A stretch of 64,000 bases of DNA from positions 67,828,212 through 67,892,211 of the forward strand of contig CM069870.1 of NCBI GenBank assembly GCA_036172665.1. The letters run 5' to 3'. The stretch is from Prosopocoilus inquinatus. Lineage: Eukaryota > Arthropoda > Insecta > Coleoptera > Lucanidae. This document shows positions 1 to 51,400 of this stretch, piece after piece. The notes under the pieces were generated by a model. It searched no databases. It was not told the origin of the DNA and saw only the letters and a program-made list of their open reading frames with translations. Position 1 is the first letter of the stretch; each line of letters opens with the position of its first letter. Made by a program: the position numbers and the translations under genes.

Positions 1-1886
1 TCTTTATCGAATTGGAATGCGATGCCCGGAGGCTAAGACGTTTACCTTCAGCGCCTGTTGCGGTCAGGGAAGCGAGAAAGAAAGAAAGAAAGGAAATTGG
101 GAATAAGAGACCTATCCCGAGAATGCATAAACTCCGTCCTCAGATAGTATCGTTTGTCTATAATATTTAAACAAACAGAAATCTAGCCAACAGTTGATAA
201 TTTTTTTTTAATCTAAAGAAACAATGATAAATTTTCTTCTGCCATCTACCGTGGTGAACTTCAAGTTTCATTTTTAAAGAAACATTCGACAAGAGATGGC
301 GCTGAATTTAATTTGTAAATATTTTTTAAAGTAAAGATTATTCAGTGAGTACCTCAAGACAGCCTCTTGGACCTTCCTAGTTTATGATGTATTTCGTATT
401 GTTGTAGCCCATTTTTATAGCAGTTTTCCCACTTCGAGTTTCCTCTTCATTTAATATTTTAATATCTTTCTTTGCTGACTCTCTCAATTTGTTCTTTGGT
501 TTCTCCATTTTGATTTTTTTGAGCAGCGCAGGTACACTTCTGCTATAAAGTTTTCGGAGTACGAGACATGCCACTGGCAGTAAGAAATTTTATGCTTTGC
601 AATTATGAACCTTATAGCTTTTACAACCGTACCTGCTACCCCGATAATAAAACCGGTCATCGCAAACACAGCGATTTAACACAGATGCGAACTTATTCAA
701 CCAACTTGAATAATCTGCTAGAAAGACTTTCATTGTAGTTGGATGGATAAGAAATTTAACAAAATTTATTTTCTAAATATTATAACGTATGTAGTAAATA
801 ATGTGTGCATTATGAAATTAAAATTTCTGAAACTTTGGCAATTTAAATTAAATAAGTCAATAAAATAAAATCTGTTATTTTTCGTTAATTAAATTTAACT
901 TTCTAGTTTCATTAAATACACATATGTTTTGCAACTAATTAATAGCTTTGTTGAGCAGAACTTCTTAGCATTTATATTATTATAATAAGAAACAAATTTA
1001 AATAATCTAGCTCATTCTATATATTTTTTCAAATACTCAAAAATCATTCACATATTTTCACAAAATAAATGTTATACGATTTAATCATTTTCTCTTAACT
1101 TCTAGATTAATGAAAACATGCCAAACTTTGTGGATGAACTTTTCAACTTATTTTACTGATGTCAGATTTGAAAAGAAACTAAAAAGAAGAATATTATTTT
1201 TTCCTCTGTGGCGTAGAATGAAATATGTATATTATTTTTAACGCAAGGATTGCATTTTTTAACTATTACACATATCATTCTATATTCTAGGAGTTTAATA
1301 CTATATTTGTTAAGTTTCCTAAATTTGTATGATTCTGAATAATTTTAATGAGTTAATTATTCGATCAATAAGTATCATCAGTAAACTTATTATTTAAATG
1401 AAATTAAGTTATTTTAAATTTATTTCACTGTAAATTCTTACAATATTATATGATACCGTATAAAAAAGAATAACATACACTGGAAAAAGTATTCAAGACT
1501 TTATTATTGAGAACAACGAAAAACTTATTACAATTAAAAACAAAACTAAAGTAAAAATTAACAAAACAATAATTCAAGTATATATTTACAACAAAAAAAA
1601 CCTGCCCAATAGTACCGTGACACATTTCTCAATACAAACAAAACAAACAAAAGGGTATCATAAAACAGAGGTTCGGTAAAATGAAACATAATTTTTCTTG
1701 ATGTCGAAAATATTTTACATGAATAGGTTTCTTGACATGTGAATAAGACGTGTATGATAAAATTGAATTGAAAATATCAATATATTAACATTTATAAAAT
1801 AAGGATGACGTGAAAAAATGTAAAATATAGCGGAAATGCTTAAATAGCATAATAGAAACCGCTTAAATAGCGACATCCTGCGATCA

Positions 1887-1933
1887 CTTCTGCTGACGAA
1901 GCCCCAAATAGGACTGAAACAGCTGTACAGAGG
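1887..1933 (+). ncRNA. hammerhead ribozyme motif, type I, short stem III
   Basis: The parts in order are: stem I 5' strand CTTCTG, core CTGACGA (1893-1899), stem II AGCCC/GGACT with loop CAAATA and one C-A mismatch, core GAAA (1916-1919), a two-base-pair stem III closed over AGCT, cleavage triplet GTA (after 1927), and stem I 3' strand CAGAGG pairing with CTTCTG. All invariant core bases (CUGANGA, GAAA, UH) are present. The stem II mismatch may weaken it. The motif shares its stem III and downstream CAGAGG with the copies at 19.6 and 44.5 kb. Confidence 0.75.
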
Positions 1934-3376
1934 AACGGGACAAAGTAACTAGAATCAAAATTGTGAGGTCTTCTATTTACTTAAAAATAAATAAAATCGA
2001 ACATATGTCCTAATTGTTATTATTTTCTTAAAATTATGTGAGCTTTCCGTATGGCAAAGCTTGTCGGTGAGCTAATAAATCACCCTGTATTTCATATTTA
2101 CTAAAAATCTATTTATGTATTTCTCGTAATGAAAATTTTAGAATCCACAGAAAAACATACACAAACTACAAACGAATAAAATTTTTGTGAAGTCAAACAA
2201 ACCAGAAGTGTATAAAGGCAGAAATTTGGTATAATTATAATTTTTCAGATTAGTTAACATCGTCGATCCTTTATAGCAATTTAACATTTATATGTCTTTA
2301 TAATATGATCTGAAATCCTGTTTTTTAACAATATAAAATATTCTAATTAAAAAAAAAAAAAAACATTTTTGTTCAATTTTTAAGTTAAAGCGAAAGAGAA
2401 CAAACAAATTCGCCACCGCGTCCGCGTTCGCAACCGCGCGTCGCCTCAATAAATACTCGGAACCAAATACTGGCAACGAAATTCAACAAACCATAAACAT
2501 CTGCACCGGCCGGGGTTTAATAGGACCTAAGTAAACAACCCTCCTATCGGGGTGCGGAGAAAGTGTCTCTGTTCCTTAAGGTTCGAAATATATTAGGCCC
2601 GTTTCAATAAGGTTCAAATTCGAATGGTTTCATTGCTTTTCATTTCGAAACTTTTAAGCATAAGTGTACATCCTCAGCATTTGTCAGTAAGTTCTTGTTT
2701 CAGTCGTTCGCCAGTTTACGCTTGCGATCACGACAATAAAAATGAATCAATTACTGTTTGGGTCGCCTCTTAACGTCGCTATATAAAAATCTATAATTTG
2801 CTTAGATAACGACATCAATTACGTAATCACGTGGGCTTTAAAAACGAAGTGTTATCGGACTGTATTGGAGGAAAATCGTGAGACTTCAGTCGGCAATTAA
2901 CAGGTCTGCGTCGACCGTTAACAACGGATTTTACGGTCGTCCGTAAATGTCATTTTATTCTTCTTCGTTTCGTCTTGGAGCTAACAGCGATGCTTGTATT
3001 TAATCAACGCCATCTCACAAAGCGGCTGACTAGAGCCTCGTCTGTTTGCTTCTCGCAGAAGGAAAAAAGCAGAAGAAGCTAAGGAAGGAAAGTCATTAAT
3101 AATTTCGTTGTTGACGCACATTGATTTCTCTAAAATGTGGTCAGGATGATTAAGTAAGGGCTGCGGGAAAAATGTCTTTCATTTCCATCGTGCTTAAAAA
3201 CAGAATCGTTTTTAATTTGTGTTTGAAATCTTACTTGACTTTGGGGAACTACCTAACGATATTGTTACAGCAGCGACTTTTAGTACGAGTCATCCCAACT
3301 TGCGTCACAGAATGTTATCGCAATTTCTCATTGATTCACGATTATTTCAGCAAAATTCCAGAAAACAGGAAGCTAC

Positions 3377-18790: not shown

Positions 18791-19543
18791 CACCCCCTTT
18801 AACTTTTTCATTTTTGAATTGAGGCAGACGTGCTTATTACAAAACTTATACAGACTAATTCAAAGTTTTCTCTGATGGTTACAGGAAAACAAACGAACAT
18901 CGCATAACTGAGACATAAATTGACGTTTTATTATTTTGCTTTAATGAAACAATTGATATTTTTATACATATTTAAAATTTGTTTAATTAAATCCTCACAT
19001 TTTGTCTGAGAGACAATTATTCATATTTTGTACTAGAGGTTTCCAACGAGGTTGAGTTGGGTTGGGTTGGTTTCCCTTGGGGGTTAACGAAGACTTGAAA
19101 GGGGTCGATGAAACCTTAGGGGTTGGCTGGGGGTCGATGAACCTCTAGGGGTATTTTTAGGGGCTTGGAGTAGTTAAGTCTTGTTTAATGATCTGTCTGA
19201 ATAGTTTATAATAGTAGTCCAAGATTCATAAATAATATTAAATAAATAAATACATGTATAGATATCATTTGTTCCAATAAAAATATTATCATTATTATTA
19301 AATTTGAATTAGCTCGAATAAAAGAAAGAACAAAAAGCTTCAATTGATGATCAAAAAAAATACGTCTAAAATGCAGTCAAGTCGAATAAAACAAAAACAA
19401 ACGATGATCGTCAAACAAGACGAAAATAAAAAAAACTTTTGTAAAACTCAGTAAGCTAAATCGACATAAAAAATTGCTGTTGTCCGAACCAAAAATTTAA
19501 TTTACTTTAATAATTAAAAAATAAAATAAATTACCAAATTAAA

Positions 19544-19799
19544 AAATTTTTTTTTTTGTGCAAATCGTTTTTGATTGCAGTGAGAACCTCGAGCAGCCTC
19601 TGGACAGCTGTTTCAGCCCTGCTTGGGGCTTCTTCAGCAGAAACGTAGCTCGACATTCCCACTGCAGACCAAAAACTTTGACAGCAAGCATGGCCGCCTT
19701 GCATGGGGGACTCATTAGGAGCAAATCCCGCTTCAATTTGTCTATCCTACTGCAATGTTAGGTCAAAAAGCGATAGTAAGATGTCGCTATTTTATATGT
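19544..19799 (-). mobile_element. hammerhead-bearing retroelement copy with 13-bp target duplication
   Basis: The insertion is flanked by TTACCAAATTAAA at 19531-19543 and 19800-19812. Read on the minus strand it starts near AAATAGCGACATCTTAC, passes a hammerhead ribozyme and ends in a TTTGCACAAAA..-type A-rich tail. It is homologous to the element at 44249-44552. Confidence 0.85.
19596..19644 (-). ncRNA. hammerhead ribozyme motif, type I
   Basis: On the minus strand: stem I GTTTCTG, core CTGAAGA, stem II AGCCC-CAAGCA-GGGCT (perfect), core GAAA, stem III with loop AGCT, cleavage triplet GTC, stem I CAGAGGC. It differs from the 44.5-kb copy by one base in stem I, which turns a C-G pair into U-G and so preserves pairing. 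Confidence 0.88.
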
Positions 19800-21315
19800 T
19801 TACCAAATTAAAGTCAAAGAGCCAGAAACGTCGATCAATTGGCTGGATTAAAATGTAAAATAATATAAACTTGTAAATCGTATGAAAAGAAAAACAAAAG
19901 ACGATGATCAATTGATAATAAAAAAAAATCGTGTCAAATAAAAAAAAGAGGAAAGAAAAAAGATTAGGAGGCAATTTAAAAGTAAAAATAAAATAAATGA
20001 AATCAATTAAAAGAAAAAACAAATATCCATCAAGTGATTATATTAAAAATTAAATTAAAAAAAGTCAAATGAGGAATAAAAAGAAATAAAGGATGTTGAT
20101 AAAGTTAGGACCGAAATAAAAATTATATAAAATGTCAAATTGATTTAGAAATTGACCAATTTTGTTACGACCTAAAGAATAATCTGTATATATTTAAGAA
20201 ACAGGGCGATCAATTAATAATTAAAAAATAAAATTAAATCAAATCGAATAAAAGAGGAAACAAAATGGCGATAAATCGTCGGGATTAAATTGTAAAATAA
20301 ACTCAGACTGAGTAATAAAAAAAAAAAAAACAAAAGACAATCAATTGATATTTAAAAATAAAGCAAAGTCAAATAAAATCAAACAAATAACAATAAACAA
20401 ACGAAATCTATTTAAAAAAAACAAAGCTTGATCAATTGATTATCAATTGATTATATTGAAAATTAACTGAAATACAGGCGAATGAGGAATTAAAAAAAAC
20501 AAAAGATGATAGTTGACGAAGATGAGATTAAATAAAAACAGAAGACAATCAATTGATAATTAAAAATAAAGCAAAGTCAAATAAAATCAAACAAATGACA
20601 ATAAACAAACAAAATCTATTTAAATAAATAAACAAAGCTTGATCAATTTATTATATTGAGAATTAAATGAAAAACAGACGTATGAGCAATTAAAAAAAAA
20701 CAAAAGATGATAGTTGACGAAGATGAGATTAAATAAAAACAAAAGACAATCAATTGATAATTAAAAATAAAGCAAACTCAAATAAAATAAAACAAATGAC
20801 AATAAACAAACGAAATCTATTTAAAAAGAAACAAAGCTCGATCAATTGATTATATTGAAAATTAAATAAAATACAGACGAATGAGGAATTAAAAAAAAAA
20901 AAAACAAAAGATGATCGTTGACGTAGATGAGATTAAAATAAAAGTTCTATAAAATTATCATAAAATCAAATCGAATCAAGAGCATTGGCTCCTTTTTTTA
21001 ACTGAATTTTTAATTTAAAGTTTCAATAAATGAGAATCAAACCGATAAGGATATAAAATAAAGTCAAATCGAATCAAGAAAAGAATAAAAATAAAATAAA
21101 GCCAAACAGAATAACAGATTGTCACAATTTAACAAAATTTTAAACCTACATGAAATATTATTAGTATATCTACATCTGCTGTTTTTTTTTTTCCAAATAT
21201 TAATTAAATTTGAATGGGGGTTGATGCGGATTTTTATTTTCTTGTAAGGGGGCGATGGTTAAAAAAGGTTGGGAACCCCTACTTTATACGCATGTGTCAG
21301 AACTTATGCTATTAA

Positions 21316-33800: not shown

Positions 33801-36800
33801 GCCACCAGAGTGCAAGACATTTTCACGTACGCAAAATTACTCGCTTTATTTATTATAATTGCGGCGGGAGTCTATCAACTGGTTAATGGTACGTATTGAT
33901 TGATATGTGCATGGCCAGATATCTTCAAGAGACTAAGACCCTTCTACTATATAACTCCTACTAACAAGCTACTAGGCACTAGCGATTTTGGTACATTTAT
34001 ATTTGGTAGTTAAATAGTGGAAGTGTCAACCAAAAAAAAAAAAAATTAAAAAAAATCTAGTTGTGTGTATGTATGTGTATGTACAACATGTAAGACGACA
34101 GCTGCGAGTTTTGCAATGATTGCAGGACACACGGAGCACTTTTCATTCATCAACACAAAGACCGAGGTTACTTCACTGGCATTATCATTCTATTCAGGGC
34201 TGTTCGCCTACAATGGCTGGTGAGAAGAAGAGAGCCACGGATGAATAGAGCGCAAGAAATTTGAATGGCCGAGCGCGCGTTGATTACTCTGATGGTCGAC
34301 ACCATGACGACAGCCATTCAAAGTTCTTCCTCACTTTATCTCTGTGGTCTTTAACTAATAACATTTTTTATTATTATTGTTATTACATGTGTGAATGAGG
34401 TTGTGATGAAAGGTGTATGATGGTAAAAGTGGCGTAATTCTAACTGCTTGGCAAAATTTTATCCCAAGGGTTTTGGCATCCTTCACCTTCCCACGTGTAA
34501 GACGGTCGCAGCCGCAATGAGTGATAGTACATGAGTAGTTAGTCCCCGATTACATGCAGAAAAAAAAGGAAACAATAATAAGTTCTGGTGTCTTGAAGAA
34601 CTTTTGTTTACCAGAGTGACTTAAGTTGTCTACCTCTCCTTGTCCGGGCGCTTTCCAACATTCCTCACGCTTCGAGGATTCCTTAACAATTAAAACGTCA
34701 ATAGCATCCTGGTAGTCTTTTTCTTTTGGGTTTCCTTTTCCGTCAACTAAGTTTCCCTTTTTTTGTTAAATTAAATCACCTTCCAGAGTTTTGGGAAATG
34801 TGAAGGCGTATGTCAAGTAGGAAAATCTTTTGCCAAATTGATACATTTAATTCACTTAATTGGAGTCTATTGATCACCAATTACAGTACATTACATTACA
34901 TTACAAAAGGAGAAAACAAGAAAAAGACTGTAAGGCCTAGAAGCCTATAAAGTTGAAATTTTTGAGCATTTATAATTCGCCTCAACGTTAAATTTGTACA
35001 AGTTTGGATCTAGACATTTGGGCGCGGCCAAATGGGTACCGCTAGTAGGGCGCGTCGAGGCTAAAGCGCATCCCCTACAGCGCAAAGAAGTTACGGCGCG
35101 AATTTGTTTGGAAACTCATTGTTGTCAATTATCCCATGATTACGTAGATCCCATTGTGGCCTTAAAAGTCCGTACGATTCAGTTTTTCGTTGTAAGTAAC
35201 TTTTATTTTTCTATTAAATTCTGTAATTTCAGTTCAAATACCTTTTCTACTGTAGTTAAAATATAACCAGATCATCTGAAAACCAAGTGACTCTTCGACT
35301 TTATGTCATTCCTGTCAAATTTCTGTCATTTTTGCATACTTTTGCACTCACGATTGTTGAGTACTTCTTTGTGATCAGTAATTTTGAGCGATGTGAATGA
35401 AAGAACACTGGTCGCATTCACATTTCAGAAGGTATGATTGTTAAAGAAATCTACAATCATTCAACACAGTGTACACCTGCTGTATCGTGTAACGGGTCAT
35501 TTTAAAAATTTTTATTTGGAGTAAGCCATGATTTTGATAAAGGCTGTTGGCAATTCTGATAAGACAACTGAAATTTTAATTTAAATCATCAGATTGTCAG
35601 ATAATTCAAATTGAATTAATTAAGGTCTAGTTCATTTATTAGTAGCTTACTCCAATTAAAAATTAAAAAAAATTATAGAAGTATGTTAATTAAATAAAAA
35701 TCAGAGGTATACATTATTATGTTATTTTCATTTGATTTCGGCGCCCTAGTGTATTCGCGCCCTAGTGTTTTCACACCTTAGTGTCGGGCGCTCAATCAGT
35801 TGCGCCCTATCGGCTGTGGTCGACTGGTCGCGCCCTTTTGTCCGTGACCGAAAGAGAATAAACAAACAAAATCAAATCATACAGCGAGCGCAATGGTGAA
35901 CAAAAAAACAAAACGTCCGCATTTTTCGGCGGACTGTAAAAAGAAACAAAAAAGGACAAACACACATACAATATCGAAACATGACGCACACGTTGAACAA
36001 AAAACAAAAGAATTTCCCCGGGAATGTAAAAATAATTAAATAACAAAAATAAACACAAAAAATAAGCGAATAGGGAAAAACAAATGAAAAATCGATGAAA
36101 ATTCAATCAAAAGAACTTGGCATTTTATTTTAATTAATTTGAACAAAAGCAACCAAAGAAAATAAACAAAATCAAAAGATTATGACCTGCTATGTTAATT
36201 AAAAAAAAATTACAGGTATACATTATTAAGTTTTCATTTTCATTTGATTTCGGCGCCCTAGTGTCTTCGTGCCCTAGTGGTTTCACGCTTTAGTGTCACG
36301 CGCCCAATCAGTTGCGCCCTATCCGCCGTGGCCTACTGGTCGCGCCCTATTCTCCGTAACCGAAAGAGAACAAAGAAACAAAATCAAATCATACAGCGAG
36401 CGCAATGGTGAACAAAAAAAAACCAAACGTCCGCATTTTTCGGCGGAATGTAAAAAGAAACAAAAGAGGACAAACAAACATAAAAAATAAAAATATCGAA
36501 ACATGAAGCATACGTTGAACAAAAAGCAAAAGAGTTTCTTTGGGAATGTGGAAATAATAACAAAAATAAACACAAAAATAAGCGAGTAAGGAAAAACAAA
36601 TGAAAAATCGATGAAAATTCAATCAAAAGAACTTGGCATTTTATTTTAATTAATTCGAACAAAAGCAACCAAAGAAAATCAATCAAAGGATTATGACCTG
36701 TTATGTTATTTAAATAAAAATTATAGGTACACATTATTATGTTTTCATTTTCATTTGATTTCGGCGCCCTAGTGTCCTCGCGCCCTAGTGTTTTCACGCC

Positions 36801-39800
36801 TTAGTCTCGCGCGCCCAATCAGTTGCGCCCTATCGATCGTGACCTACTGGTCGCGCCCGTAACCGATAATACAACGTCTCTCTCTTCAATTGACTAGCCC
36901 TTGTTTTGAACAAGAAAACGAAAAAGAAAACTATTGCCTATTATCTCCTTTTATTTACCCTTTTACCTTCCTGTTTTTTTTTTTATTTTTCCCCCTTTAG
37001 CTACTCTTGCGCCGCGTATTCAACTTTTTCTTTTGGTTTATTTGTTGATCTGATTTTCTTTCTGCGTGGCCTTGCATTAGAAATTCATTGGATTTTAAGA
37101 TGAGCAAGACTACCTTCGAGAACCGAAATGCAAGAACGCAGAAGAGAGCGAGAAGATTTCTAAGAAATAAGAATTTTTTTTAATGAAAAAGAATAAGAAG
37201 AAGAGAAACTCAATTCAAAAAGATCGAAAAACCAGTCATCGTCGAAACTTTATTTCTGAAATGAACGAGAATCGAAAGAAAACAGAGAAGAAAGGCTTGT
37301 TTCCTTTTTGTTCCTCAATTAGCTAATCTTTTCTGTTTTTCTTGCCTATAACTCATCTTTTGTTTAGCTTTTTGCCTTTCCCGTGCTTCTATCTCGTTGG
37401 TTTTCGTTAATTTTCCTCGTTTTCATTTCTTATTTCTTCCTTTGTTGGACTTCTCTCTTTTTCTCGTTCCTCTATTTGCCTAATCTCTTGTTCTTATGTC
37501 AAAGTTTCATCTTCCTACATTCCATCATTTTAGCTGCAAGCTCTCCTTTGTATTCTTTGGGTCATTCCATCATTTTAGCTGCAAGCTCTCCTTTGTATTC
37601 CTTGGGTCATTCTACATTTCTTCTTCCCCCCCCCCTTTGCCAGGATTCCCTTCTACTGGTTCTTTCTTTTCTTCTTGCGTCAAACTTTCTTTTCCCTGCG
37701 TTCCACGATTTTAACTGCAAAGTGCATTCCGTGTTCCTTCCTTTTCTTGGCCCATTCTTCATTTTTCTTCCTTCCGCTGGATTCCCCTTCTTTTCGTTCC
37801 TCTATTTGCCTAAACTTATCTTCTTGCCTCAAACTTTTTTCTTTTTGCGATCCATCATTATAGTTGCAAGCTGGGCTGCGCGTTCCATCTTTTCTTTGGC
37901 CTATTCTTCTTCATTTTCCGGCAAACGTCTGATGCCTTGATAACATATTTTCTCACGAAGAGGCGTGCCATTTCTAAAGGGGCTCATGGACCAACGAAAG
38001 CCAATCCCATATGAAATTGCCATGGCCATATCCATTAGAATTATTGTCATTTATTTTTCTAAGGCTGGATTTGTTTTTATCTAAAGCAGGTCTCTGACAT
38101 TCTTAGTTTACGATTGTCATTTGTTCTCAGGTTTACGGCTGTCATTTCGTAGTTTCGATGTTCATTTGTTCGTTGTTTTTTTTTTTGTTTGTCATAAAGC
38201 GCAGTTTTCGTTTTGCTCTTATAGTTGACAATTTCCAATTGTTTCTTGAGGAGGAATTTGTTTATCTAAATTCTGTCACATTCTAATGTACGATTGTCAT
38301 TTGTTTCCAGGTTTACGGCCGTCATTTGTTCGCAGCTACCTGATTTTCATGTGTTCTCACGATTTTCATTTGTTTTAGAGTAATTTATTTATTTAAGCCG
38401 CACACATTCTAATTTTTATGATTGCTATTCATTCCCAGATTTACGATCGTAATTTGTTCGTCGCTTTACGATTGCCATTTTTTCATATAGCGCACGATTT
38501 TAATTTGTTCTTATAGTTCACGATTTTCGTTTGTTTTTTGAGGAGGAATTTTGTTATCTAAAACCTTTAAAAATTTGGGTTTACGCTTGTCATTTGTTCC
38601 CAGACTCACGATTACCATTTGAATGTGAAATAATTAAATAACAAAAATAAACACAAAAAATAAATGAGTAAGGAAAATCAAATGAAAAATCCATGAAAAT
38701 TTAATCAGAAGATTATATTTTAATTAATTTGAATAAAGGATCAAAATCAAAGGATTATGACCTGTTATGTTAATTAAATAAAAATTATAGGTATATATTA
38801 TTATGTTTTCATTTTCATTTGATGGTCGGCGCCCTAGCGTCTTCACACCCTAGTGTTTTCACGCCTTAGTGTCGGGCGCCCAATCAGTTGCGCCCTATCG
38901 GCCGTGGCCTACTGGTCGCGCCCTATTGTCCGACGAAGAGGATAAACAAACGTACAAAATCGAAACGTGAAGCATATGTTGAACAAAAAACAAAAGAGTT
39001 TCCTTGGGAATGTGAAAATAAATACAAAAAACAAGCGAGTAAGGAAAATCAAATGAAAAATCCATGAAAATTCAATCAAAAGATTATATTTTTATTAATT
39101 CGAACGAAAGAAAATCGATAATATCAAAGGATTATGACCTGTTATGTTAATTAAATAAAAATTATTTTATCTCTTCTTTATTGTTTCTCCTTCTTGTTCT
39201 TCGTTTACCATCCTGAGGTTATCTTCCTGATTTTAAATTTCTAGGACCAAAATGAAATACATAACACCAGAAGTGGAGCAAACCACGATCTTTCTATGGG
39301 GTATCGGAAAAAAAGAAATCAAGGAAACCAAAATGAAATAGGTGACGCTAAAGACAGGAGAAGCCAAGATCGCAAAGTAGAAGAAACCATGATCCAATGA
39401 CTTCCTTTACTTCCAGTATTTTAGATCCCAAAGCAGAAGAAACATGATCCCATGGCTTCCTCTACTTCTAATGTTGTCTATTTCAATTTTCTCTTTTATT
39501 GGCTATTCAAGTTTTTTTCCCTCCCGTGTTCTTCCTCTTCGCAATACATTCCACGGCTTCTTCTATTTATTCTCCACACCAGATTTGGATTTGATTTTGC
39601 TTTTCTGTCGACCTTTTACGTTGCTTTTTCTTTTCCGGCCATTCAAAATTTTCCATAAATTAAATTATCTTCAGAATTTCATTGCCAAGGTATCGAGTGA
39701 CTCTTGTCTTCAATTGATGCCAAAAATCCAAGAAGATTGCGGCTGACTGTTTAAAGGAACCCGTCTTTCGTTTTAAAAATATTTTTCCCTTTCTTCTTCT

Positions 39801-42800
39801 TGGGAAGAAATTGTTAATTGCGACGGAATCAAACAATTTAAGAGTTTGTTTGCCTAGCCTGACGATTTTTGAAACTCTAAGAATTAATCAAACTTCACTT
39901 CCTATCTTTTTTCACTTCAATAATTACATCGCCCAGCCAAATCGAAATTAAATTTCTTTCGTTATGACGCAAAGCCCTTTTATCTTCCCAGCTGCAGAGT
40001 GCTCCCTTTTTTTTGGGGGGCGAAAAACTTGATCGTATTACGTCCAGAGCAATTCTCTCTAATTTCCTGTCGCTTTTACGATGACGCAAGAAATTAAAGA
40101 GTTTTTGACGAAATCCCACCTCGTCAATTCGATGCAGGAATGCGCTTTCGATTTTCCACTTCGGCGACTTCCAAGACGAAGAAGTAATTAAAGCCTTTCG
40201 TTAGTTGCCTCGATTCAATTTTAACGCCTTAAATGTCAAGCGAAATTACGCCACTGAAAAGAAAAAAAAAAACAAATCCCTCACTTAAGTATGCTTTCCT
40301 TCTTTTTACCAGAACACTTCCTTTAATCGTTTAAAGTATAAATTAAAAAGAGGCAAAGCAGACTTGGGAAACGACCCCGTCCCCCATGACATTAATTGCA
40401 CGCTAATTAAAATACTCGCTTTCTTTTTCAGGAACTACCTGAATTTCATCATTGAAGAACTGAAAGATCCAGTTAGGTATTACTATTCCTTAATTTCACG
40501 CTGAAACGTAAGAGTTGCCGCAAGGCAACTGACCCCCCAAGGGCGTTTCTGTAATTGGCACTGACCATCTAACGTTTGATTGCAGAAATCTTCCTCTGGC
40601 AATCGCGTTCTCGTGCACTTTGGTGACGGTGGTGTACGTCTTGACGAACGTCGCCTTTTACACGACTTTATCTCCGGCGGAGGTCTTGGGCTCGGAGGCG
40701 GTCGCCGTCTCTTTCGCCAATCGACTCTTCGGGTCCTTGGCGTGGTGCATTCCCGTTTTTGTGGCCCTCTCCACGTTTGGGGCCGTTAATGGAATTTTAC
40801 TTACCTCGTCCAGGCTCTTTTATACTGGGGCACTCCACGGACAGATGCCGGAAATTCTGACCATGATACAAGCCAAGAGGTTAACACCTACACCAGCAGT
40901 TTTAATTATGGTAAGTATAAGAATAATCGATTTTGATTTCGTTTCTATTGGAATTTAGTTTGACGGAATAAATTTCAATAAAAGTCGGAACAAAGTTATT
41001 TGGGGTGTCCTAAATAGCGTTTAGAGACGCCGTTGTAGATGCTACCAATAAGGCAACTTAATTCACAATATGCCAATATGTTATTTGGGTTGCTTATACA
41101 TCTAATAGCTGAATTATATTACAATCGCAAAACTATCTATCCAATTTGTTCAGACAATCTATTTGGATAAATAGGGAACATATCTTCGCGTTAGCTTTGC
41201 TACTTTTACGTCAGCAAACGTCTCATGCTTAATGGAAGAGCTTCAAAAACGCCTCAATTATATTATATTATATGCGGGGTAACCATCTTAAATCGCAAAT
41301 GGGCAGGCAACCCATCAATCAAATCAGAAATAACTTCCAGTTGTTATGGCGTACTTAAAGCCACTAAAGTAAGATGGGTTGCCTAGCTCCAGTTTTCAAG
41401 GCATAAAGAGAAAGATTTTTAATTTGTTGCCATAAAGTGCGATATAAGTTTTGACTAATTAAACGTATCAGTTTTTTTTTCATTTGTATACAATATTTAC
41501 ATTGTATGTTCAAAGTAAAAAAACTCACGGTATATGTACAGTCGCGAGTATTAAATTTTGGTCGTCACTGTCACAATTTATTGCTTGCGACTGTATATAC
41601 AGGCTGACTACGCGAGAATATCCACCCCTTCAAGTTTTTTTTTTATCAGAAAGAAACTTTTCATACAAAACTTATAGAGACTGATTAAAAGCTTTTACGG
41701 ATGTTTACCGAATAACAAATACACATCGAATAACCGAGATATAAACTGACATTTTATTTTCTGAAGTGGTATATCTGTAAACATTTGGATCCCAAATTAA
41801 ATTCTAAATTTTTATTTCCCTAAATAATTTTTAAATAAAACGAAAAGTTTTCGAGACATTCGTATTTAATAGGATAAGTTCTGACACGTGCGTATAAAGC
41901 AGAGGTTCTTTTTAAACCATCAACCCTTACAAAAAAATAAAAATTTCCGTTGACTCCAGATTTAAATATTAAAAAAAAAATAGCAAGTGTAGATATAATA
42001 TAAAATTTTGTTCAATCGTGACAATTTATTATTCTATTTGTCTTTATTTTATTTTATTTTTTTAGTAATACTATCATCTTTTTTCTTTTCTTGATTCGAT
42101 TTCAGTTTGATTCTCTTTTAATCAAACTCAATTAAAAATTCGTCAGTGTCAATATCAATTTGATTGTATGTTAACTTTATAGAATTTTTCTTTTGATCTC
42201 ATCTTCGTCAACGATCATCTTTTTTTAATTCCTTATTCGAATTTATTTCATTTAATTTTCATTATGAATAACTGATCGAGTTTTGTTTTTTTTATATATA
42301 TATGTTATTCGTTTTGTTTTTACTTTTTAACTACCATTTACCATTATTTTTTCGCTGATTTCTTTTAGTTTTCGTTTATTGAGTGTGAATTTATTTTACA
42401 CTTTAATCCCGTTGATTTTATTTTGTCTTTTATTCGATTTGACTTTGTTTTGTTTTTAAATTATTCACTGATCGCCCTGTTTCGTTAAAATTTACAGATT
42501 ATTCTTTGGATCGTGACAAAATTTGTCAATTTTTAAATCAATTTGACTTATTGCTAGTTTTAATTTTAGTTTTGATCCTAACTTCATCATCAGCTTTTAT
42601 TTTTATACAATCCTCATTTGATTCTATTTTTATTTACCTTTGAATATAGTCAATTGACGGACCTTTGTTTTTTTTTTAATCAAATTCATTTTTTACTTTT
42701 AAATTAACAACTAACCATATTGCTTTTTGTTTTCTCTAAGGTTTGATTTTATTTGATATCACTTTTGGTTTTCTTAGTTATCAATTGAACGTCTTTTGTT

Positions 42801-45800
42801 TTTTACACGATTTAAGATTATTTTATTTTATATTTTAATTCCCGATTGATGATCGTCATTTTTGGTGAATTTATTTTATTTATTTTTTAATTATTAAATT
42901 GATTGTTCTGATGAAAGTCAGTTTATGTCGATTTGACTTAATGAGTTCCACACAGTTTTTTATTATTGTCCAGTCTTGTTTGACGATCGTCTTTTGTTTT
43001 TGTTTTATTCGATTTTATTCGTATTTTAGGAGTGTTTTGATTTTGTTAATCAATTGGACGTCTTTTTTTTCTCTTTTATTCGAGCTAATTCAAATTCACT
43101 TATTATTACATGTAAAATTGTTACTTTTTTTATAAACTATTCAGCAAGACCTTTAATAGAGAAGACACAACAACTCCGGCCTGAACTAAAAGACCCCTAA
43201 CGGACCCATAATAAAGGTTCATCGATCCCTTTCAAGTCTTCATCGACCTCCAAGGGGTCGATACAGGTCCCGTTGAAAATGTTGAATAATCGTCTCTTAG
43301 ACAAAATGTAAGGTTTTAATTAAAAGAAGTTTTTAAAAAAGAAGAAAAAGAGAGGCGATTACTATTTCAAATTTCAAATAAGTATGAAAATACCAAGTGT
43401 TCCGTTTAAAAAATTGAAATTTCAGCTTATATCTCAGTTATGCGACGTTCGCCTGTTTTCCTGTAAACATCAGCAAAAACTTTGATTCATTCTATATAAG
43501 TTTTATGATAAAGACTTCTTTCTAAAATCAAAAATAAAGAAGTTAAAAGGAGTTCTCGCGTAATTACACTGTATCATTTCTTGTAAAAAAAAAAAACAAG
43601 ATAATGAATTAGTTGCAATTTGCGTTCAATTTTTTTATATTTATTTTGCTGCGCCCCCCTTTGAAGACTTATGCGCCCACCACAGGGGTGTGCGCCCCAC
43701 AGTTTGGGAAACGCTGCGTTAACCTGTTCCGTATACTAATACGTTAATGAGAATTTCATCAAAAACAGAAGCGGTGACGGAATACATCCTTGGCACATAC
43801 CTGTCCAATTGTAAAGGTTTCTTATGTGAAACCCCGCCCTTGCAGTCTTGTTAGCTTTCATTTGTCATATGTATGTAGGTATTACGGTATAATAAACTGT
43901 CTCTATTGCCCTTTATTGTAAAGATAAAAATAAGTTTGCAAGTAGTCTTGCACTTCAGTCGGAAATTACAAAAATACCCTTAAAGGATTTACTCGTACAT
44001 AAACGAAGAAGCGAGCAAACCACGTCTATTAAGCTAGCCCCCCCACCAACGGAAAAAAGGTTTTTATTTTTTTTTAAATAAGGTGCTAATTAGGTGCTAA
44101 GAAGGTGCTTATTTGAAAAATTTAGTGCTCGAACCGTTTGGCAGAAAAAAATTTTATTTTTGGGTGGGGCTAGCTTAACGTTAAGATAGCCCCCTCCAAC
44201 AAAAAAAAACAAAATTAATGCATAAACAAAAAAAAACAATAACAGTAGATGAACAGATAAAACAGCGACATCTTACTATCGCTTTTTGACCTGACATTGC
44301 AGTAGGATCTTCAATTTGTCTATCCTACTGCAATGTCAGGTCAAAAAGCGATAGTAAGATGTCGCTGTTTTATCTGTTCATCATTCTTACATCGCAATTC
44401 CGAATAAATTGGGCAAGTCGTTTTTGGTCTGCGGTGGGAATGTCGAGCTACGTCTCTGCTGAAGAAGCCCCAAGCAGGGCTGAAACAGCTGTCCAGAGGC
44501 TGCTCGAGGTTTTCACTGCAATCAAAAACGATTTGCACAAAATTTTTCTAAAAACAGTAGAATTAGGTGCTAATTAGGTGCTCTAAGAAATGATGAAAAT
44601 ATTTCCAAAATATGCATATTAAAGAACTTAGAATTAGATGCCAATCGAACGGACGGCACGCGAGGTCAGAACACGAGAGAATTTACCTTACAAAATTAGG
44701 TGCTCCGGCGAATTTGGTCTTAAAATGTTTCTTTTTTAATATCAGTTAAAGCTACATAGTCCCCGAATTAGGTGCTCGTTGTTTTTGACAAGAATTCGTA
44801 CTTCGTCGCTCGCGCGGTCAACTTACATGAGAGAAGTCTCCTTAAAAAATTAGGTGCTCTGGCGAATTTGGTCTTAAAATGTTTCTTTTATTATTATTTA
44901 GGCGGCGTTCGCACGAGCGTTTTGTAAAACTTTCAAACGCTCGCTTATTTCATGTCATGAATAGAACTTATCGGTTTCAAAATGTAAATGCGTTCGCACT
45001 AAAGCGCTTTTTTGACCACCGCTGCAGTGTGAACACAATTATTAAATCTGGTATGTTCTATTCACGGCGTTAGAAAAAACGAGCGCTTGAACGTTTTCGA
45101 AAACGCTCGTGCTAACGCAGCCTTACAGTTACATAGGGTAAAGTTGGAACATATGCCACACCTAAGTAAGAATCGATGAAGAAATGTTAATCTAAGTAGG
45201 TAAATATCGAAATTTTGTAGGCGAGTGATTTACTTTCCCTTTTCGAAAAATCTGTTCAAAATATTGCTCGATAGCAACAATAAATAATAAAATAAATGCT
45301 TCTAAAACTTTATCTGCAATTGGCCATATATCCCACACTGTATTGGATTTATGCCCCATACGTATGGTATATATGCCCCATTAATATTTTATTGGAATAA
45401 TTGGCCCAGTATTGTATATATTTAAATGAAATACAATTATTTTTTAACAAAAAAATAAAACTAAACAAAAATCATTCACTGGGTAATATTTGTGCTGTAA
45501 ATATGTTTTCAATGTGAATTTAATAGTTACCGCTTCATAACTTTCTTTCTTATTTATTTCGCATCCATATAAACTGTATCCATGATTTGAGTTCACAATA
45601 GGAAAAACATTTTTAGTTTTGAGTTTTAGAAGAAAAAAATCACACTTTATAAAAGGTTTGCCAATAACAACAGGTATAGTATGCCATAAATCCCTTTTAG
45701 ATGAGATAAACGTCCCAGCTAAAATTTCCGTTATTATGTGTCCAAGTTACAATTTCAGGATCAGAAGTGCTGGTTAGAACATTTAACTGGTAGAATATGT

Positions 45801-47078
45801 TAAAACAATTAGCTTAGTAACAATGCCCTAGATCTGAAAGCTTATTTATAACAATCAAATTCCGCCATTTTCAATAGAAATCGAAAGCCTTTTCTTTTAA
45901 AATGAAATTATAGTAATAATAAAAGATACAAACCTATTGCTTCTTATTGATTTTAGTTTACTATTAGTTTAGTTTAACATATTAGTCGAATTATGTCGTC
46001 AATTGCAGTCAGATTTCATAACATTACAAAGTGGCATATATCCCACAGGGGCATATATCCCAATTTTACCCTAGTCCCCGAATTAGATGAAAGTAATATT
46101 TTATTAATTTCTTGTTTTATTCTAATGAAATTGAAATGTAATGCAAAAGCTTGTAGCTTTAACTGATATTAAAAAAGAATCATTTTAAGACCAAATTTGC
46201 CGGAGCACCTAATTTTGTAAAGTAAATTCTCTCGTGTTCTGACCTCACGTGCCGTCCGCTCGATTGGCATCTAATTCTAAGTTCCCTAATATACATATTT
46301 TGGAAATATTTTCATCATTTCTTAGAGCACCTAATTAGCACCTAATTCTACTGTTATTGTTTTTTTTTTGTTTATGCATTAATTTTGTTTTTTTGTTGGA
46401 GGGGGCTACCTTAACGTTAAGGTAGCCCCACCCAAAAAAAAAAATTTTTTTCTGCCAAACGGTTCGAGCACTAAATTGTTCAATTAAGCACCTTATTAGC
46501 ACCTAATTAGCACCTTATTTAGAAAAAAATAAAAACCTTTTTTCCGTTGGCGTGGGGGGGGGGGCAGCTTAATAGACGTGAGCAAACCTTCTCCTAACAT
46601 TTGCTTACGTGTTGCAGGCCGTGCTTTCAATGCTGTACTTAACCGTGTCGGACATATTCGCCCTCATCAACTATGTCGGGTTTGCGACTTGGGTAAGCTT
46701 TAAGTCTAAAATCCTGCAGTCATTTATTACTATTATTATTATTATTTTAAATTTTAGTTAAGCATTGGCGTCTCCGTGCTCTGTCTCCCTTGGCTGAGGT
46801 GGACGCAACCCGATCTAGAGAGACCCATCAAGGTCAACCTAATTTGGCCCATCCTGTATCTGCTCGCGACGGTTTTCGTGACGGCGGTCCCGATGATAGC
46901 CAGCCCAGTAGAAACGGGGATCGGTCTCCTCATGATCCTCACGGCCATCCCCGTCTACGCCGTCTTCATAATGTGGAAGGAAAAACCGGCGTGGTTCCAG
47001 AAGGGGACTGCTGGGGCCACCGTGACGCTCCAGCGCCTCCTCGTCGTCGTTGGCAAGGCGAAGACGGCGAAATTGTGA
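30632..47078 (+). CDS. SLC7-family (LAT-type) amino-acid transporter light chain, 3' seven exons
   Basis: This gene encodes the light (catalytic) subunit of a heteromeric amino-acid exchanger of the plasma membrane. Exons are 30632-30878, 33763-33888, 34126-34219, 40432-40476, 40586-40910, 46618-46692 and 46758-47078. All have GT..AG borders and compatible phases, and they join into 410 residues plus TGA. The match to human LAT1/LAT2 and insect LAT-like proteins is clear throughout: [18 protein letters not shown] near the start, the [16 protein letters not shown] core (residues ~146-161), [12 protein letters not shown], and ERPIKVNL (~325-332). Cys67 in FFPAC sits where LATs form the disulfide to the SLC3A2/CD98hc heavy chain. 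Human LAT1 is about 507 residues, so roughly the first 95 (cytoplasmic N-terminus, TM1-2) are missing. I searched for the GSIIGSGIF-type exon upstream and did not find it. Among Drosophila light chains it most resembles the CG1607/minidiscs type from memory, so substrate preference is left open. Confidence 0.95.
30989..33534. mobile_element. 2.5-kb hAT element with exact 8-bp target duplication, in a transporter intron
   Basis: CTTCCCGG occurs at 30981-30988 and 33535-33542. The ends CAGTGGCGTAACC and CTACGCCACTG are inverted and match the common hAT terminus CAGTGGCGTAR. The interior is A-rich, with a piece of the GGTCGATG/GATCAAT-type repeat, and has no intact transposase. Without it the intron would be about 330 bp. 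Confidence 0.85.
33763..33888 (+). CDS. SLC7 transporter exon b
   Basis: The acceptor is a T-run followed by cag and the donor is gtacgt. The exon encodes residues 83-125 ([20 protein letters not shown] and a following hydrophobic helix [15 protein letters not shown]). The VNCY and RVQD motifs match LAT family TM4-TM5. The exon ends in phase 1 within a Gly codon. Confidence 0.95.
34126..34219 (+). CDS. SLC7 transporter exon c
   Basis: The acceptor is tgcag and the donor is gtgaga. The exon encodes residues 125-156, ending [12 protein letters not shown], the conserved TM6 segment involved in substrate binding in LATs. The preceding intron is short (237 bp). The next intron is 6.2 kb and repeat-filled. 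Confidence 0.95.
34985..39180. repeat. GCGCCCTAGTG-phrase tandem array and T/C-rich tract in transporter intron
   Basis: A ~507-bp unit starts near 35740, 36247 and 36759, and again near 38823. Each begins with short phrases on the theme GGCGCCCTAGTGT, TTGCGCCCTATCG and TGGTCGCGCCC, followed by A-rich DNA. Between the third and fourth copies are a pyrimidine-rich tract (37300-37950, with a 45-bp exact-type duplication at 37518/37563) and recurring GATTGTCATTTGTTC phrases (38050-38620). A looser GCGC-rich stretch lies at 34985-35110. Confidence 0.8.
40432..40476 (+). CDS. SLC7 transporter exon d (45-bp micro-exon)
   Basis: This is a very small exon encoding [15 protein letters not shown] (residues 157-171). 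It completes the Trp codon of the previous exon and leaves two bases of an Arg codon. The acceptor is ttcag and the donor is gtatta. It is easily missed by gene finders, but the sequence NYLNF-EEL-DP is diagnostic of LAT light chains and both phases fit. Confidence 0.93.
40586..40910 (+). CDS. SLC7 transporter exon e
   Basis: The acceptor is tgcag and the donor is gtaagt. The exon encodes residues 171-279, covering [19 protein letters not shown], the SEAVAVSFA motif, [17 protein letters not shown], the QMPEILTMI loop and TPTPAVLIM, i.e. TM7 to TM9. It is separated from the micro-exon by 109 bp and ends in phase 0. Confidence 0.96.
41539..41593. mobile_element. 55-bp TA-flanked hairpin MITE
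   Basis: Begins CAGTCGCGAGTATTAAATT and ends with its imperfect reverse complement, with TA on each side. Its ends resemble those of the MITE at 47618-47723. Confidence 0.6.
41607..43566. mobile_element. long-inverted-repeat element, copy B
   Basis: The ends TACGCGAGAATATCCACCCC and ..GGAGTTCTCGCGTA mirror each other and match copy A at 18780-21910, including the GACTGATT..AAGCTTTTACGGATGTTTACC type subterminal stretch. The interior is T-rich, i.e. copy A's interior in inverted orientation. No transposase frame. Confidence 0.7.
44249..44552 (+). mobile_element. 304-bp hammerhead-bearing retroelement with 8-bp target duplication
   Basis: Flanked by AACAGTAG at 44241-44248 and 44553-44560. 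The opposite arm of the host foldback element preserves the uninterrupted target (AACAATAACAGTAGAATTAG). The first 133 bp are a perfect inverted duplication: 60-bp arms 44249-44308 and 44322-44381 around a 13-base loop. Then come the ribozyme and a tail ending TTTGCACAAAATTTTTCTA. Confidence 0.9.
44452..44500 (+). ncRNA. hammerhead ribozyme motif, type I, perfect core
   Basis: Stem I GTCTCTG (44452-44458), core CTGAAGA (44459-44465), stem II AGCCC/GGGCT with loop CAAGCA, core GAAA (44482-44485), a 2-bp stem III over loop AGCT, cleavage after C44493 (triplet GTC), stem I CAGAGGC (44494-44500). Stem I forms 7 pairs including one G-U. Every invariant nucleotide is present. The stem III region ACAGCTGT is self-complementary, so two transcripts could form a longer shared stem. 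Confidence 0.9.
44901..45122. mobile_element. 222-bp MITE with TTA target duplication
   Basis: Left end GGCGGCGTTCGCACGAGCGT and right end inverted (GGCTGCGTTAGCACGAGCGT), arms of about 45 bp, flanked by TTA at 44898-44900 and 45123-45125. PIF/Harbinger-like. Confidence 0.8.
45136..46071. mobile_element. 936-bp TA-flanked element
   Basis: Ends GGGTAAAGTTGGAACATATG and the inverted GGGTAAAATTGGGATATATG, flanked by TA, with several subterminal CATATATCCCAC/TATGCCCC phrases. The host foldback repeats show the uninterrupted site ACATAGTCCCCGAATTAG. Probably a non-autonomous Tc1/mariner-type element. No transposase frame. Confidence 0.75.
46618..46692 (+). CDS. SLC7 transporter exon f
   Basis: The acceptor is ttgcag and the donor is gtaagc. 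The exon is 25 codons, [20 protein letters not shown] then GFATW, matching LAT TM9-TM10. It lies only 37 bp downstream of the end of a 2.56-kb foldback transposon, so its polypyrimidine/branch region is almost all that is left of the original flank. Confidence 0.95.
46758..47078 (+). CDS. SLC7 transporter terminal exon
   Basis: The acceptor is a T-rich tract ending in tttag. The exon encodes residues 305-410 with [18 protein letters not shown], two hydrophobic helices (TM11-12), [16 protein letters not shown] and a basic C-terminus, ending in TGA at 47076. The only intron before it is 65 bp. Confidence 0.96.
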   Translation, partial: LSIGVSVLCLPWLRWTQPDLERPIKVNLIWPILYLLATVFVTAVPMIASPVETGIGLLMILTAIPVYAVFIMWKEKPAWFQKGTAGATVTLQRLLVVVGKAKTAKL

Positions 47079-47893: not shown

Positions 47894-48450
47894 TTAGTAA
47901 TCTTGCCTTCTAAATCGAAACAGAACTTCGTAATTCTTCTTGTAATCCCTCGGCAAGTTGATGTTTAATTTGTCGACGGCCATGTACACGGCGCCTATGG
48001 CCGTCGTCGTCGACAACCTAATCAAGGTCAGCTCTTCGATTTCCGTGTTGCTGAGAATGTGGTCGATGAACCCCGGCTTCAGCAAAGCCCAGCTCAGCCA
48101 GACCGAGCCCACGCATAAAATGTGAATCCCGCCCTCCCTCTTGGTCAATTCCTCGGAGGCGTTCCTCAGGACGGACGAAAGCGCCCTGGATAAATGAGAG
48201 CCAGCCGTGGCGAAGAGGTGCTTCGCGAACGCGTCCCCTTCGTTCGCGCACACCGCCACCTTCTTGCACAGACTAGCAATAAACGCCTTATCAAAGTTCG
48301 TGTAAAAATACTTAAGAATGTCCTCTTTACTTTGCACGTTAAAGTGTTCCTTCACCAGCGACCAGACGCCCTTGATCGGGTAGGGCGCCGGGGCGAAGCC
48401 GTCCAGGTCGTCGAAGCAAGACTTCACCGCACTGAACGCGATCTTCCATG
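47894..48450 (-). CDS. NAGK: NAGK terminal exon
   Basis: The minus-strand acceptor is gattttgatttcag. The exon encodes residues 147-331 (AWKIAFSAVKSCFDDLDGF to RFRRQDY) followed by TAA at 47896-47894. It matches the NAGK C-terminal lobe, including FDKAFIASLCKKVA, ILCVGSVWLSW and LIRLSTTTAIGAVYMA. The 109-bp intron before it contains a ~43-bp imperfect tandem duplication. Confidence 0.96.
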
Positions 48451-51400
48451 CTGAAATCAAAATCAAGGGGGTGGGTAATCTCGGAGGATGTCATGTAAAT
48501 CAAAATCAAGAGGGTAGGCACTCTCCAAGGGTGTCATGAGCCTTTTGACTTGTACTTACCACTTCCTTCGTCGCCTAGGAGGTACCCCCAGCCTCCGCAT
48601 TGGTATTTGCTACCGTCGGGGTTGATGAGGAGGGTGTTGGAGCCGGTCCCGGCTATACAGCAGACGCCCCCGTTTCTTGAAGTCGCCGCCACTGATCCAT
48701 CCGTGTCGCTTCCGATGGCGTAACGCTCGCTCAAATTGGGGTAGGTTTCTAGGAGCCCCCGGATGATCTCCTGGTTCGATTCTTCTTGCTCACATCCGCT
48801 CAAGCTTAGACCCTGAAGATAATAAATAAAAATAAAAAAATATATACCTACATGGTATATCAAAAATGAATTCGTTATACGGCCAATTAAAATTAAAAAA
48901 AAAAAAACGAGTTTTCATTTAATTTTAATTCTGTATCGCATGTGATCTGCGATGGTCATAAAAACCAAACAAATATACCTAACTCTTGGACAAATTTACA
49001 AAAACCCTTGACAATCTATACAGGGTGATTCATAATAAGTGTCCGACCCGTTAGGTTAAGGTCACGCAAGTCCCAAATTGCAAGAAGAAAAAATATCGGA
49101 GACGTTTCGAAAATCAATGTCTTTTGTGCCCCGAATGGAAACTGCTTGAATACCACTGATGACTACTGTCACACCAATGTGCTTTTAAAATCGGGCTGAC
49201 TAACTGTTTGTGTCTTAGAGACTGTGTCACCGTGTCAACAAAAAGTAAATGCTTTGTGATGTAACTTACTGTTTTTGTAACAGAATTCGATGTGATCTTC
49301 TTGTTATGCGCCTAATTACATGATTTATGAATAGACCGCTACACACAACGCGTCTTAGGTCTAATTTATTGGTCAAATGTAATTTATTAAAACTGCAGTT
49401 ACTTCTAGATGCACGTTTTGTCTCGCGTACTTGAACCGCAAGATTTTTCTTTGTTGCACGAATAAGTCTGTGAGCCGAGTATACTACCACCCAAGAGCGT
49501 TCAAAAGTTCTGTGTGGATGTCAGCCTAATGAATCACGTACGTCGGGCAGTGATTTGCACTGCTTTGATTTCTTTTGTCATAGTAAAAACGCAAGTCTGT
49601 CTGCCAAGTATTCTACCACCCAAGATCGTTGAAAAGTTCTGTGTGCATGTCAGCCTAATGAATTACGTACGCCGGGCAGTTATTTGCACTGCTTTGATTT
49701 CTTTTGTTCCAGCAAAAACGCAAGTCTGTCTGCCAAGTATTTTACCACCCAAGATCGTTGAAAAGTTCTGTGTGGATGTCAGCCTAATGAATCACGTACG
49801 CCGGGCAGTAATTTGCACTGTTTTGATTTCTTTTGTCATAGTAAAAACGCAAGTCTGTCTGCCAAGTATTCTACCACCCAAGATCGTTGAAAAGTTCTCT
49901 GTGCATGTCAGCCTAATGAATCACGTACGCCGGGCAGTAATTTGCATTGTTTTGATTTCTTCTGCTTCAGCAAAAACGCCTCCTCAATCGTGTTAATGGA
50001 GTTTTCATAAACTGAATTTTTCATTTGTAATAATTAATTGATTGATTACTAGTGATTACTATTATTACTAAATTTCGTAATTATTAATTATTACTTTACT
50101 CTACCGGATGTTTTTGGATTAACAGTAAACACATTCGGAAGTTCTAGTTATATGTATAGATTTTTCACTGGCATCTGGTAACACTGTTAAAAGATTGAAG
50201 GATTCTGGATTTGAAATTTACTTAATTTTACTTATTGTTTTAAATTAGACGTATAGTATAATACGCTTGGTGGCCTAATAATAATACATACATTACATCT
50301 CAACTAATTACTATTATAAAAGGGTGTTCTTGCATTTTTATTTAAAAAATCCTTTTGTTGTCGCATCGTACGCAGAAAAATTCCCAAAGCAGGATTTTCC
50401 TTCACACTTGGCAACACTGCCAAAGCTCACTTTCATTACCACATTTTTATTATTTTTCCAAGCTGACTTTCATTATTATGTTTTTATTATTGTTCCAAGC
50501 TAGCTTTCATTATTATATTTTTATCATTTTTTTTTTGAATTTTTTGAAATTTTAATTATTCTTGTGTATTTATAATTATCAAAATTTTGTCTGTTTTATT
50601 TATCTCTATACAGGTTGACCCTGCACATTCTTTTAAAAATCTTTTTTGTCATCGCGTTGGTTTCCGAAAATCTCCCCCAAAGAGGGATACTTCCCTCGCA
50701 TTTGGGGCAACACTGCCAAATATTACAAATCTGAAGCTTATTTTTTCATTATTATTGTTTTTCAAAATTGTTGCTCTACAGTGTGTGTCTAGAGTAACCG
50801 TAAACAATTTAGAAATTTCTCACATTATTTTAAACTTTTTAAAAAATTGTTAATTATTTTAATTTTAATCATCTTTTTAATCTTTTTAAAGATTATTATA
50901 TTAATTATTTTAATTTCAATTATTTTTTAAAACATTTAAAGAAATTTTAATCATTTTTAAAGAAATTTTGATTATTACTTTCTACGGGGTGTTTCCGGAG
51001 AAATAACAAATAATTTGAGGACCACTTCCAGTCTTAAATTACTCCAATATTCGTAAATCTTAATTATTATTATTATTACATAATATTCAATAATTTAATT
51101 ATTTTCGAATTTTTACCTGTATTAACAGAGAAATTTATCGAGTGACCTTCAGAAATTATAAACAATTAAATTTTTTACAACAAAAAAAAGTAGGCAACTC
51201 AATAAACACAGTAGCGTGCGTGGTTCGCTATACTGAAGACGGTAAGAACATTTTATTTTTATTTACGCTAATGTTATTCACAATTCACCAAGATTACGCA
51301 ATTCTCCTAATTTTTTTTATAATCAAAGCAATTTCCCATTTTTCCCTAATTTAAGAAAATAAATTCGTTTTTTAGTAGATGTACTTACAATTGTTATTAT

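Follow-up and report, generated by a model that had tools for sequence, protein, structure and literature searches.

A type I hammerhead ribozyme motif in short insertions of probable Penelope-like origin in the beetle Prosopocoilus inquinatus

Does the transporter gene of this beetle harbour a genuine hammerhead ribozyme and, if so, what kind of mobile element brought it there? Both questions arise from an initial annotation of the window, by which we mean the whole 64-kb stretch of DNA analysed here. We addressed them by comparing the motif, its relatives in the window, their ends and their predicted folds with known ribozyme-bearing elements. The features are collected in Table 1.

Table 1. 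Position, strand and basis of the features discussed (numbered from the first base of the window).
Feature	Position	Strand	Basis or remark
Type I hammerhead ribozyme motif, copy 1	44452..44500	+	Rfam RF00163 match, descriptor scan
Entire insertion of copy 1, 303 bp (304 with 8-bp target duplication)	44250..44552	+	empty site, target duplication
Left target-site duplication AACAGTAG(A)	44241..44249	.	present once in empty paralogous site
Right target-site duplication AACAGTAG(A)	44553..44561	.	empty-site comparison
Left arm of perfect inverted duplication, partial direct 5' head	44248..44308	+	94.6% identity to copy 2 head, 56 bp
Second head segment of copy 1	44309..44382	-	95.7% identity to copy 2 head, 69 bp
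Copy 1 spacer	44383..44419	+	no counterpart in copy 2
Conserved ribozyme and tail module, copy 1	44420..44541	+	3 differences from copy 2 in 122 nt
Paralogous empty site, host repeat without insertion	46288..46394	-	sequence comparison
Copy 2, 256-bp insertion: direct (non-inverted) head, own spacer, ribozyme, tail	19544..19799	-	
Copy 2 with perfect 13-bp target duplications TTTAATTTGGTAA (19800-19812, 19531-19543)	19531..19812	-	
Copy 2 hammerhead, same core as copy 1	19597..19643	-	RF00163 23.8 bits, descriptor scan
Copy 3, decayed relative	1857..1963	+	RF00163 25.0 bits
Amino-acid permease coding stretch	30617-31078		Pfam
Amino-acid permease coding stretch	40533-40955	+	Pfam
Transporter coding stretch	46758-47075	+	no Pfam family; related to LAT-type transporters
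N-acetylglucosamine kinase open frames beside transporter gene	47894-48914	-	protein search
Tandem arrays, units ~129-317 bp	22856-25889, 8724-9731, 10365-11225, 49464-49961, 56381-57360, 58185-58733, 58917-59313		

We confirmed a complete type I hammerhead motif of predicted self-cleaving activity at 44452-44500 (+). Stem I (7 bp) is formed by GUCUCUG (44452-44458) and CAGAGGC (44494-44500) and leads into the core sequence CUGAAGA (44459-44465), a 5-bp stem II (AGCCC/GGGCU, loop CAAGCA) and GAAA. Stem III is the self-complementary ACAGCUGU, pairing as AC-AGCU-GU; alone, this sequence can form a short stem at most (2 bp with a 4-nt loop), or else it can pair with a second copy of itself. Cleavage is predicted after C44493 of the GUC triplet, between 44493 and 44494. 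The defining CUGANGA ... GAAA ... UH core with three stems was recovered both by the descriptor scan and in the RF00163 alignments, and every element that the initial annotation had named, from the CUGANGA core, 5-bp stem II and GAAA to the minimal stem III, 7-bp stem I and GUC site, is in place.

The Infernal/Rfam comparison that had been suggested as a check gave a match below threshold: the model RF00163 (Hammerhead_1) aligns to copy 1 at full model length with 25.8 bits, which lies under the curated gathering cut-off of 34 bits. The corresponding E-value is 1.6e-4 (178 bases against all 4227 Rfam families), or ~1e-5 by arithmetic for one family and 64 kb. None of the three copies that we describe here reaches the cut-off (25.8, 23.8 and 25.0 bits for copies 1, 2 and 3), and because copy 1 scores below it, an Rfam search of the whole window at gathering thresholds listed nothing. 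The only hammerhead model to appear in a 2-kb Rfam search around copy 1 was HH9 (16.6 bits), which was also the only one listed in a longer search of the copy 2 stretch (14.5 bits). A descriptor scan of the window that tolerated one core mismatch and asked for stems of at least 4/3/2 bp gave two matches, copy 1 and copy 2 (19603-19637, -); these two members of a single family have 7/5/4-bp stems and no core mismatch. Dinucleotide shuffling (100 shuffles) never produced an exact core with stems of at least 5/4/2 bp and produced four with stems of at least 4/3/2 bp. By itself, without the stems, the core pattern carries no weight (15 matches versus 13 expected).

The window contains three copies of the ribozyme element, two of which (copies 2 and 3) were absent from the initial annotation. 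All three match RF00163, with the core and the three stems aligned over the entire model, and they largely preserve the core and adjoining bases. They depart from the model in the sequences of stems II and III, and copies 1 and 2 carry A at the free core position. Copy 3, which the descriptor scan missed, has C at that position, a GUA site, a stem I of 6 bp and a single mismatch within stem II (core 1893-1927, +). The core bases, whose loss in other copies had been named as grounds for doubting the ribozyme, are identical in copy 2 and intact in the diverged copy 3. A profile built from the three copies found nothing else in the window below E 0.5 except the antisense of copy 1 (E 0.0033). Core-plus-stems patterns of the ribozyme, two run against viral contigs and one against genome contigs, had no match in these viral or prokaryotic collections, a result that says little about beetles.

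Copy 2 consists of a head of ~70 bp, a spacer of ~54 bp, a conserved module of ~123 bp that includes the ribozyme, and an A/T tract. Copy 1 shares the module, has a different spacer (whose strongest match elsewhere in the window is poor, 20 bp, E 0.20) and contains the head in both inverted and direct orientation. The arms of its inverted duplication, which had been described as perfect, are indeed 100% complementary over 61 bp with a 13-bp loop between them; the first one or two bases of the left arm fall within the target duplication. Matches of microRNA families to this 61-bp inverted repeat lie far under the cut-offs and were dismissed as a generic response of hairpin models. The 5' starts of the heads of copies 1 and 2 coincide to within ~3 nt, and both insertions end 59 nt beyond the predicted cut, 49 nt of which run to the end of GCACAAAA. 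The GC content is 44.5 and 42.2% for the 256- and 303-bp copies. In copy 3, head-like sequence directly precedes the ribozyme and resembles the head of copy 2 (25 bp, 84%, E 0.045). As regards tandem or partial-tandem pseudo-LTRs (pLTRs), this likeness means that the heads could be remnants of a 5' pLTR; no second ribozyme accompanies them.

Copy 1 is a real insertion, since an empty paralogous site is present nearby (Table 1). The host repeat into which it was inserted has an inverted paralogue, spanning ~46152-46580, that lacks the ribozyme insertion; joining the flanks of copy 1 by script recreates this empty site and leaves AACAGTAG(A) duplicated. The target duplication is therefore 8 bp long, or 9 bp if the following A is included, and the insert measures 304 or 303 bp (44249/44250-44552). 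The empty site thus bears out the 8-bp duplication and the 304-bp element of the initial annotation, whose reading of the element as a recent, short, non-autonomous retroelement insertion is likewise supported. For copy 3, comparison of the flanks 1600-1868 and 1934-2080 gave no target duplication of 8-14 bp. The host repeats form an inverted pair (44021-44756 and 46152-46580), the 44-kb member being rich in the direct-repeat motif AATTAGGTGCT.

By in silico folding, the module of both copy 1 and copy 2 is predicted to form a single long hairpin that carries the ribozyme close to its tip (copy 1, 44383-44552, z = -7.53; copy 2, z = -7.09). Only these whole-module folds stand out against shuffles: the shorter stretch 44440-44515 of copy 1 gave z = -2.34, with 6 of 200 shuffles equally good, and copy 3 folded no better than its shuffles (z = 0.00). 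Helices in the distal part of stem I were discarded as support, the 5-bp helix of copy 3 being reached by 342 of 5000 shuffles and the longest uninterrupted helix of copy 1 (6 bp) by 1036 of 5000. The three positions at which the 122-nt modules of copies 1 and 2 differ all belong to predicted pairs, and pairing is preserved at each, by a standard or a G-U pair; this is suggestive, but three such differences are few and would not be unusual by chance. The best predicted fold of the monomer is inactive, with GCUG at the start of the core paired to the CAGC in stem III; a fold constrained to the hammerhead is less stable by 6.0 kcal/mol in copies 1 and 2 and by 5.3 kcal/mol in copy 3. As a duplex of two strands, the palindromic stem III is predicted to be worth -11.1 kcal/mol, and for this reason a dimer seems more plausible than a monomer as the active form of the ribozyme.

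What mobilized these sequences? We consider it probable that the copies are short, non-autonomous elements derived from, or mobilized by, a Penelope-like element (PLE). Six features resemble PLEs: the minimal ribozyme, the fixed 3' end, the target duplications, the inverted head, the palindrome and the differing spacers. Reviews characterize the hammerheads of PLEs as minimal variants of type I that lack helix III (PMC7761336, PMC6155905, in the parts available), and the AC-AGCU-GU stem of the beetle motif conforms to this. In the anole element, reverse transcription starts inside the RNA, at an AC-rich stem loop at +111-118, and the ribozyme cleaves at a point 26 bp inside the ORF; a tail of 30-40 bp, present in some cases, matches the stretch that separates two start sites (PMC11167929, available text). 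By arithmetic from these figures, the inner start lies 45-62 nt beyond the cut, a range that includes the 59 nt at which copies 1 and 2 both end. In the accessible portion of the rotifer study (PMC3846280), the pLTR takes in the beginning of the ORF, inverted pLTRs, which have palindromic junctions, occur in abundance and are attributed to self-priming, target duplications measure 8, 9 or 10 bp and are missing from some copies, and unrelated sequence lies between solo pLTRs in a few cases. Excerpts of a curation guide also list inverted pLTRs and 3' extensions as peculiarities of PLEs (PMC8969392). The beetle insertions share the short target duplications (copies 1 and 2), the 3' end shortly after the hammerhead, the inverted head with its palindromic junction (copy 1 only) and, in their spacers, something like the unrelated sequence between pLTR parts. 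The nearest likeness is to the Penelope/Poseidon clade (PAc of Anolis, PMC11167929), where the available text describes a pLTR with a minimal type I hammerhead, and to the Pen families of Adineta vaga, for which the available part of PMC3846280 mentions no hammerhead.

A model in keeping with these features takes copies 1 and 2 as a pLTR head of ~70 bp followed by a spacer that differs from copy to copy and by the conserved ribozyme-tail module of ~123 bp. A PLE protein would bind the transcript and nick AT-rich DNA, and reverse transcription would start within the RNA just 3' of the hammerhead, giving the copies their common 3' end. The cDNA end may then fold back and prime its own copying, which would yield the inverted head repeat of copy 1, and repair would leave target duplications of 8-13 bp. 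RNA cleavage by the hammerhead would follow GUC and would be easier for a dimer joined through stem III, or with the aid of protein, than for a monomer.

Several features set the beetle copies apart from published PLEs. They have one ribozyme each, whereas PLE pLTRs are usually tandem, and copies 1 and 2 share a 5' end, unlike the typical outcome of truncation, although only two copies are involved; both points count against this reading, as do the inactive best fold of all three copies and the failure of copy 3 to fold better than shuffles. The target duplication of copy 2 measures 13 bp, and the predicted stem I is very long and also holds the presumed start region of reverse transcription. 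Moreover, the copies carry no gene for a reverse transcriptase (RT) with GIY-YIG endonuclease, the ORF that characterizes a PLE, and at 256 and 303 bp are too short for one. A scan of 306 open frames of at least 55 aa in the window for RT and GIY-YIG motifs yielded nothing convincing: one frame, of 55 aa, contained a loose FLDD match, and six full frames gave five loose GIY-YIG-like or xDD matches, all judged by eye not to be real. None of ten further open frames had a Pfam match, nor did the frame that runs from 44290 through the ribozyme. Because no enzyme gene was found, we class the copies as PLE-derived or PLE-mobilized and non-autonomous, and not as a PLE proper. The PLE inference of the initial annotation accordingly gains the fixed 3' end, the minimal stem III, the inverted head and the variable target duplications, and lacks a sequence link to a PLE protein.

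Two frames are open through the module in both copy 1 and copy 2, and since neither has a protein relative, we make no coding claim for them. One begins at the ATG at 44440, present in both copies, and is interrupted by a stop in copy 3; it was considered as a PLE-type ORF start overlapping the hammerhead and rejected, the protein search returning four candidates, none at E ≤ 10, and no Pfam match. Its phase to the cut is 0, whereas the phase computed for the anole ORF is 2. The second frame does have phase 2, as in the anole element, and was also rejected as coding, with no candidate from the protein search. The insertion ends at +113 from the ATG at 44440, close to the anole figure of +111-118; we regard this likeness as accidental, since start codon and cut are not equally far apart in the two elements (54 versus 26).

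Within the Penelope-like reading, a narrower question is whether the copies are plain 5'-truncated or internally deleted products of one autonomous PLE, with no short family that propagates as such. The two readings overlap, and this second one is possible, though we would not expect it to be correct. It accounts for the same PLE features, and the differing spacers and the rearrangement of copy 1 are what repeated template jumps might leave; copy 1 may even descend from a source like copy 2. The 5' ends of the two insertions, however, agree within ~3 nt, which would be rare under random truncation and, for two copies only, favours a defined short family. Of the two alternatives in the initial annotation, a truncated PLE or a SINE-like family, the shared 5' end speaks for the defined short family, and the tRNA-derived kind of SINE is unsupported (see below).

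More speculatively, the copies might represent a distinct PLE-dependent class, in effect a SINE of Penelope elements, in which the head and the hairpin of ribozyme and RT start suffice for mobilization in trans, with an arbitrary spacer between them; we regard this as rather unlikely on present evidence. If it were so, folding or cutting of the ribozyme and initiation of reverse transcription would be mutually coupled, because the presumed RT start is paired into the predicted extended stem I. A literature search by titles and the openings of abstracts, with weak coverage, found no description of a beetle element of this kind. The two short copies, one with its empty site demonstrated, indicate that the head and the module joining the ribozyme to the presumed RT start travel together. 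Should the layout recur genome-wide, it would offer a natural minimal substrate for testing the role of the ribozyme. That role is unsettled in PLEs: according to the available text of PMC11167929, the anole ribozyme cut in vitro only with the PLE protein and ribozyme mutants still inserted, whereas earlier work cited there reported self-cleavage at 3-25 mM magnesium.

We think it improbable that the copies are animal non-LTR retrozymes, whose multimeric transcripts would be cut to monomers, circularized and copied back via a helper. These small repeats carry type I hammerheads, yield circular RNAs and are described as tandem; they are reported from insects among others (PMC7229834, available sections). 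Shortness, lack of coding sequence, the type I hammerhead and likely mobilization in trans are all shared with the beetle copies, and the insertions of 256 and 303 bp, their GC content and their target duplications fit the published values (RNAs of ~170-400 nt, GC below 50%, duplications longer than 4 bp). The reading fails, however, because the tandem structure is missing: none of the three copies contains a tandem ribozyme unit. Both insertions also stop 59 nt past the cut, whereas on a circular template an RT is not bound to one starting position, and the minimal stem III is of the PLE type, while a stable helix III is possible for most type I hammerheads of invertebrate retrozymes (PMC7761336, available part). 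PMC7936874 was set aside as a comparison, the part available dealing with termite and fly hammerheads of type III.

A SINE with its own Pol III promoter that acquired a ribozyme would be short, with common 5' and 3' ends, an A/T-rich 3' end and variable target duplications, much as observed. We nevertheless give it very little credence: no tRNA genes were found in the window, none of copies 1, 2 and 3 has a B-box-like site, and the 32 loose B-box matches in the window are about what chance predicts. As for heads of the 5S or 7SL type, the Rfam search of the window at gathering thresholds lists nothing. Finally, that the motif is a chance resemblance with no ribozyme behind it, as the sub-threshold Rfam score and the inactive monomer fold might suggest, is scarcely credible given the absence of strict descriptor matches from 100 shuffled windows and the intact core and 6-bp stem I of the diverged copy 3.

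The insertion at 44 kb also bears on its host gene. Copy 1 has the sense orientation and is located between coding parts of an amino-acid permease gene; its placement in a transporter intron is borne out to the extent that open frames can tell, with permease stretches on both sides and on the same strand. Because of this orientation, the ribozyme of copy 1, if active, could cut the pre-mRNA there. Intronic hammerheads of amniotes (HH9, HH10) likewise lie in the sense strand, and copy 1 is a weak match to HH9, as noted above; the beetle element differs from them in being mobile and repeated.

Among the best 120 of 288 relatives of the neighbouring N-acetylglucosamine kinase, Trypoxylus dichotomus comes first (74%), with Onthophagus taurus (67%) and Popillia japonica (72%) ranked next, which points to a beetle host that is probably a near relation of the scarabs. 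The two kinase frames meet at a 43-bp tandem duplication (48454-48538). Among the tandem arrays of Table 1, 22856-25889 holds 14.8 copies of 206 bp and 58917-59313 two identical 198-bp units. Short arrays with units of ~16 bp that contain CCCTAGTGT occur at 35741-35784, 36764-36816 and 38832-38873, within 3.1 kb of one another.
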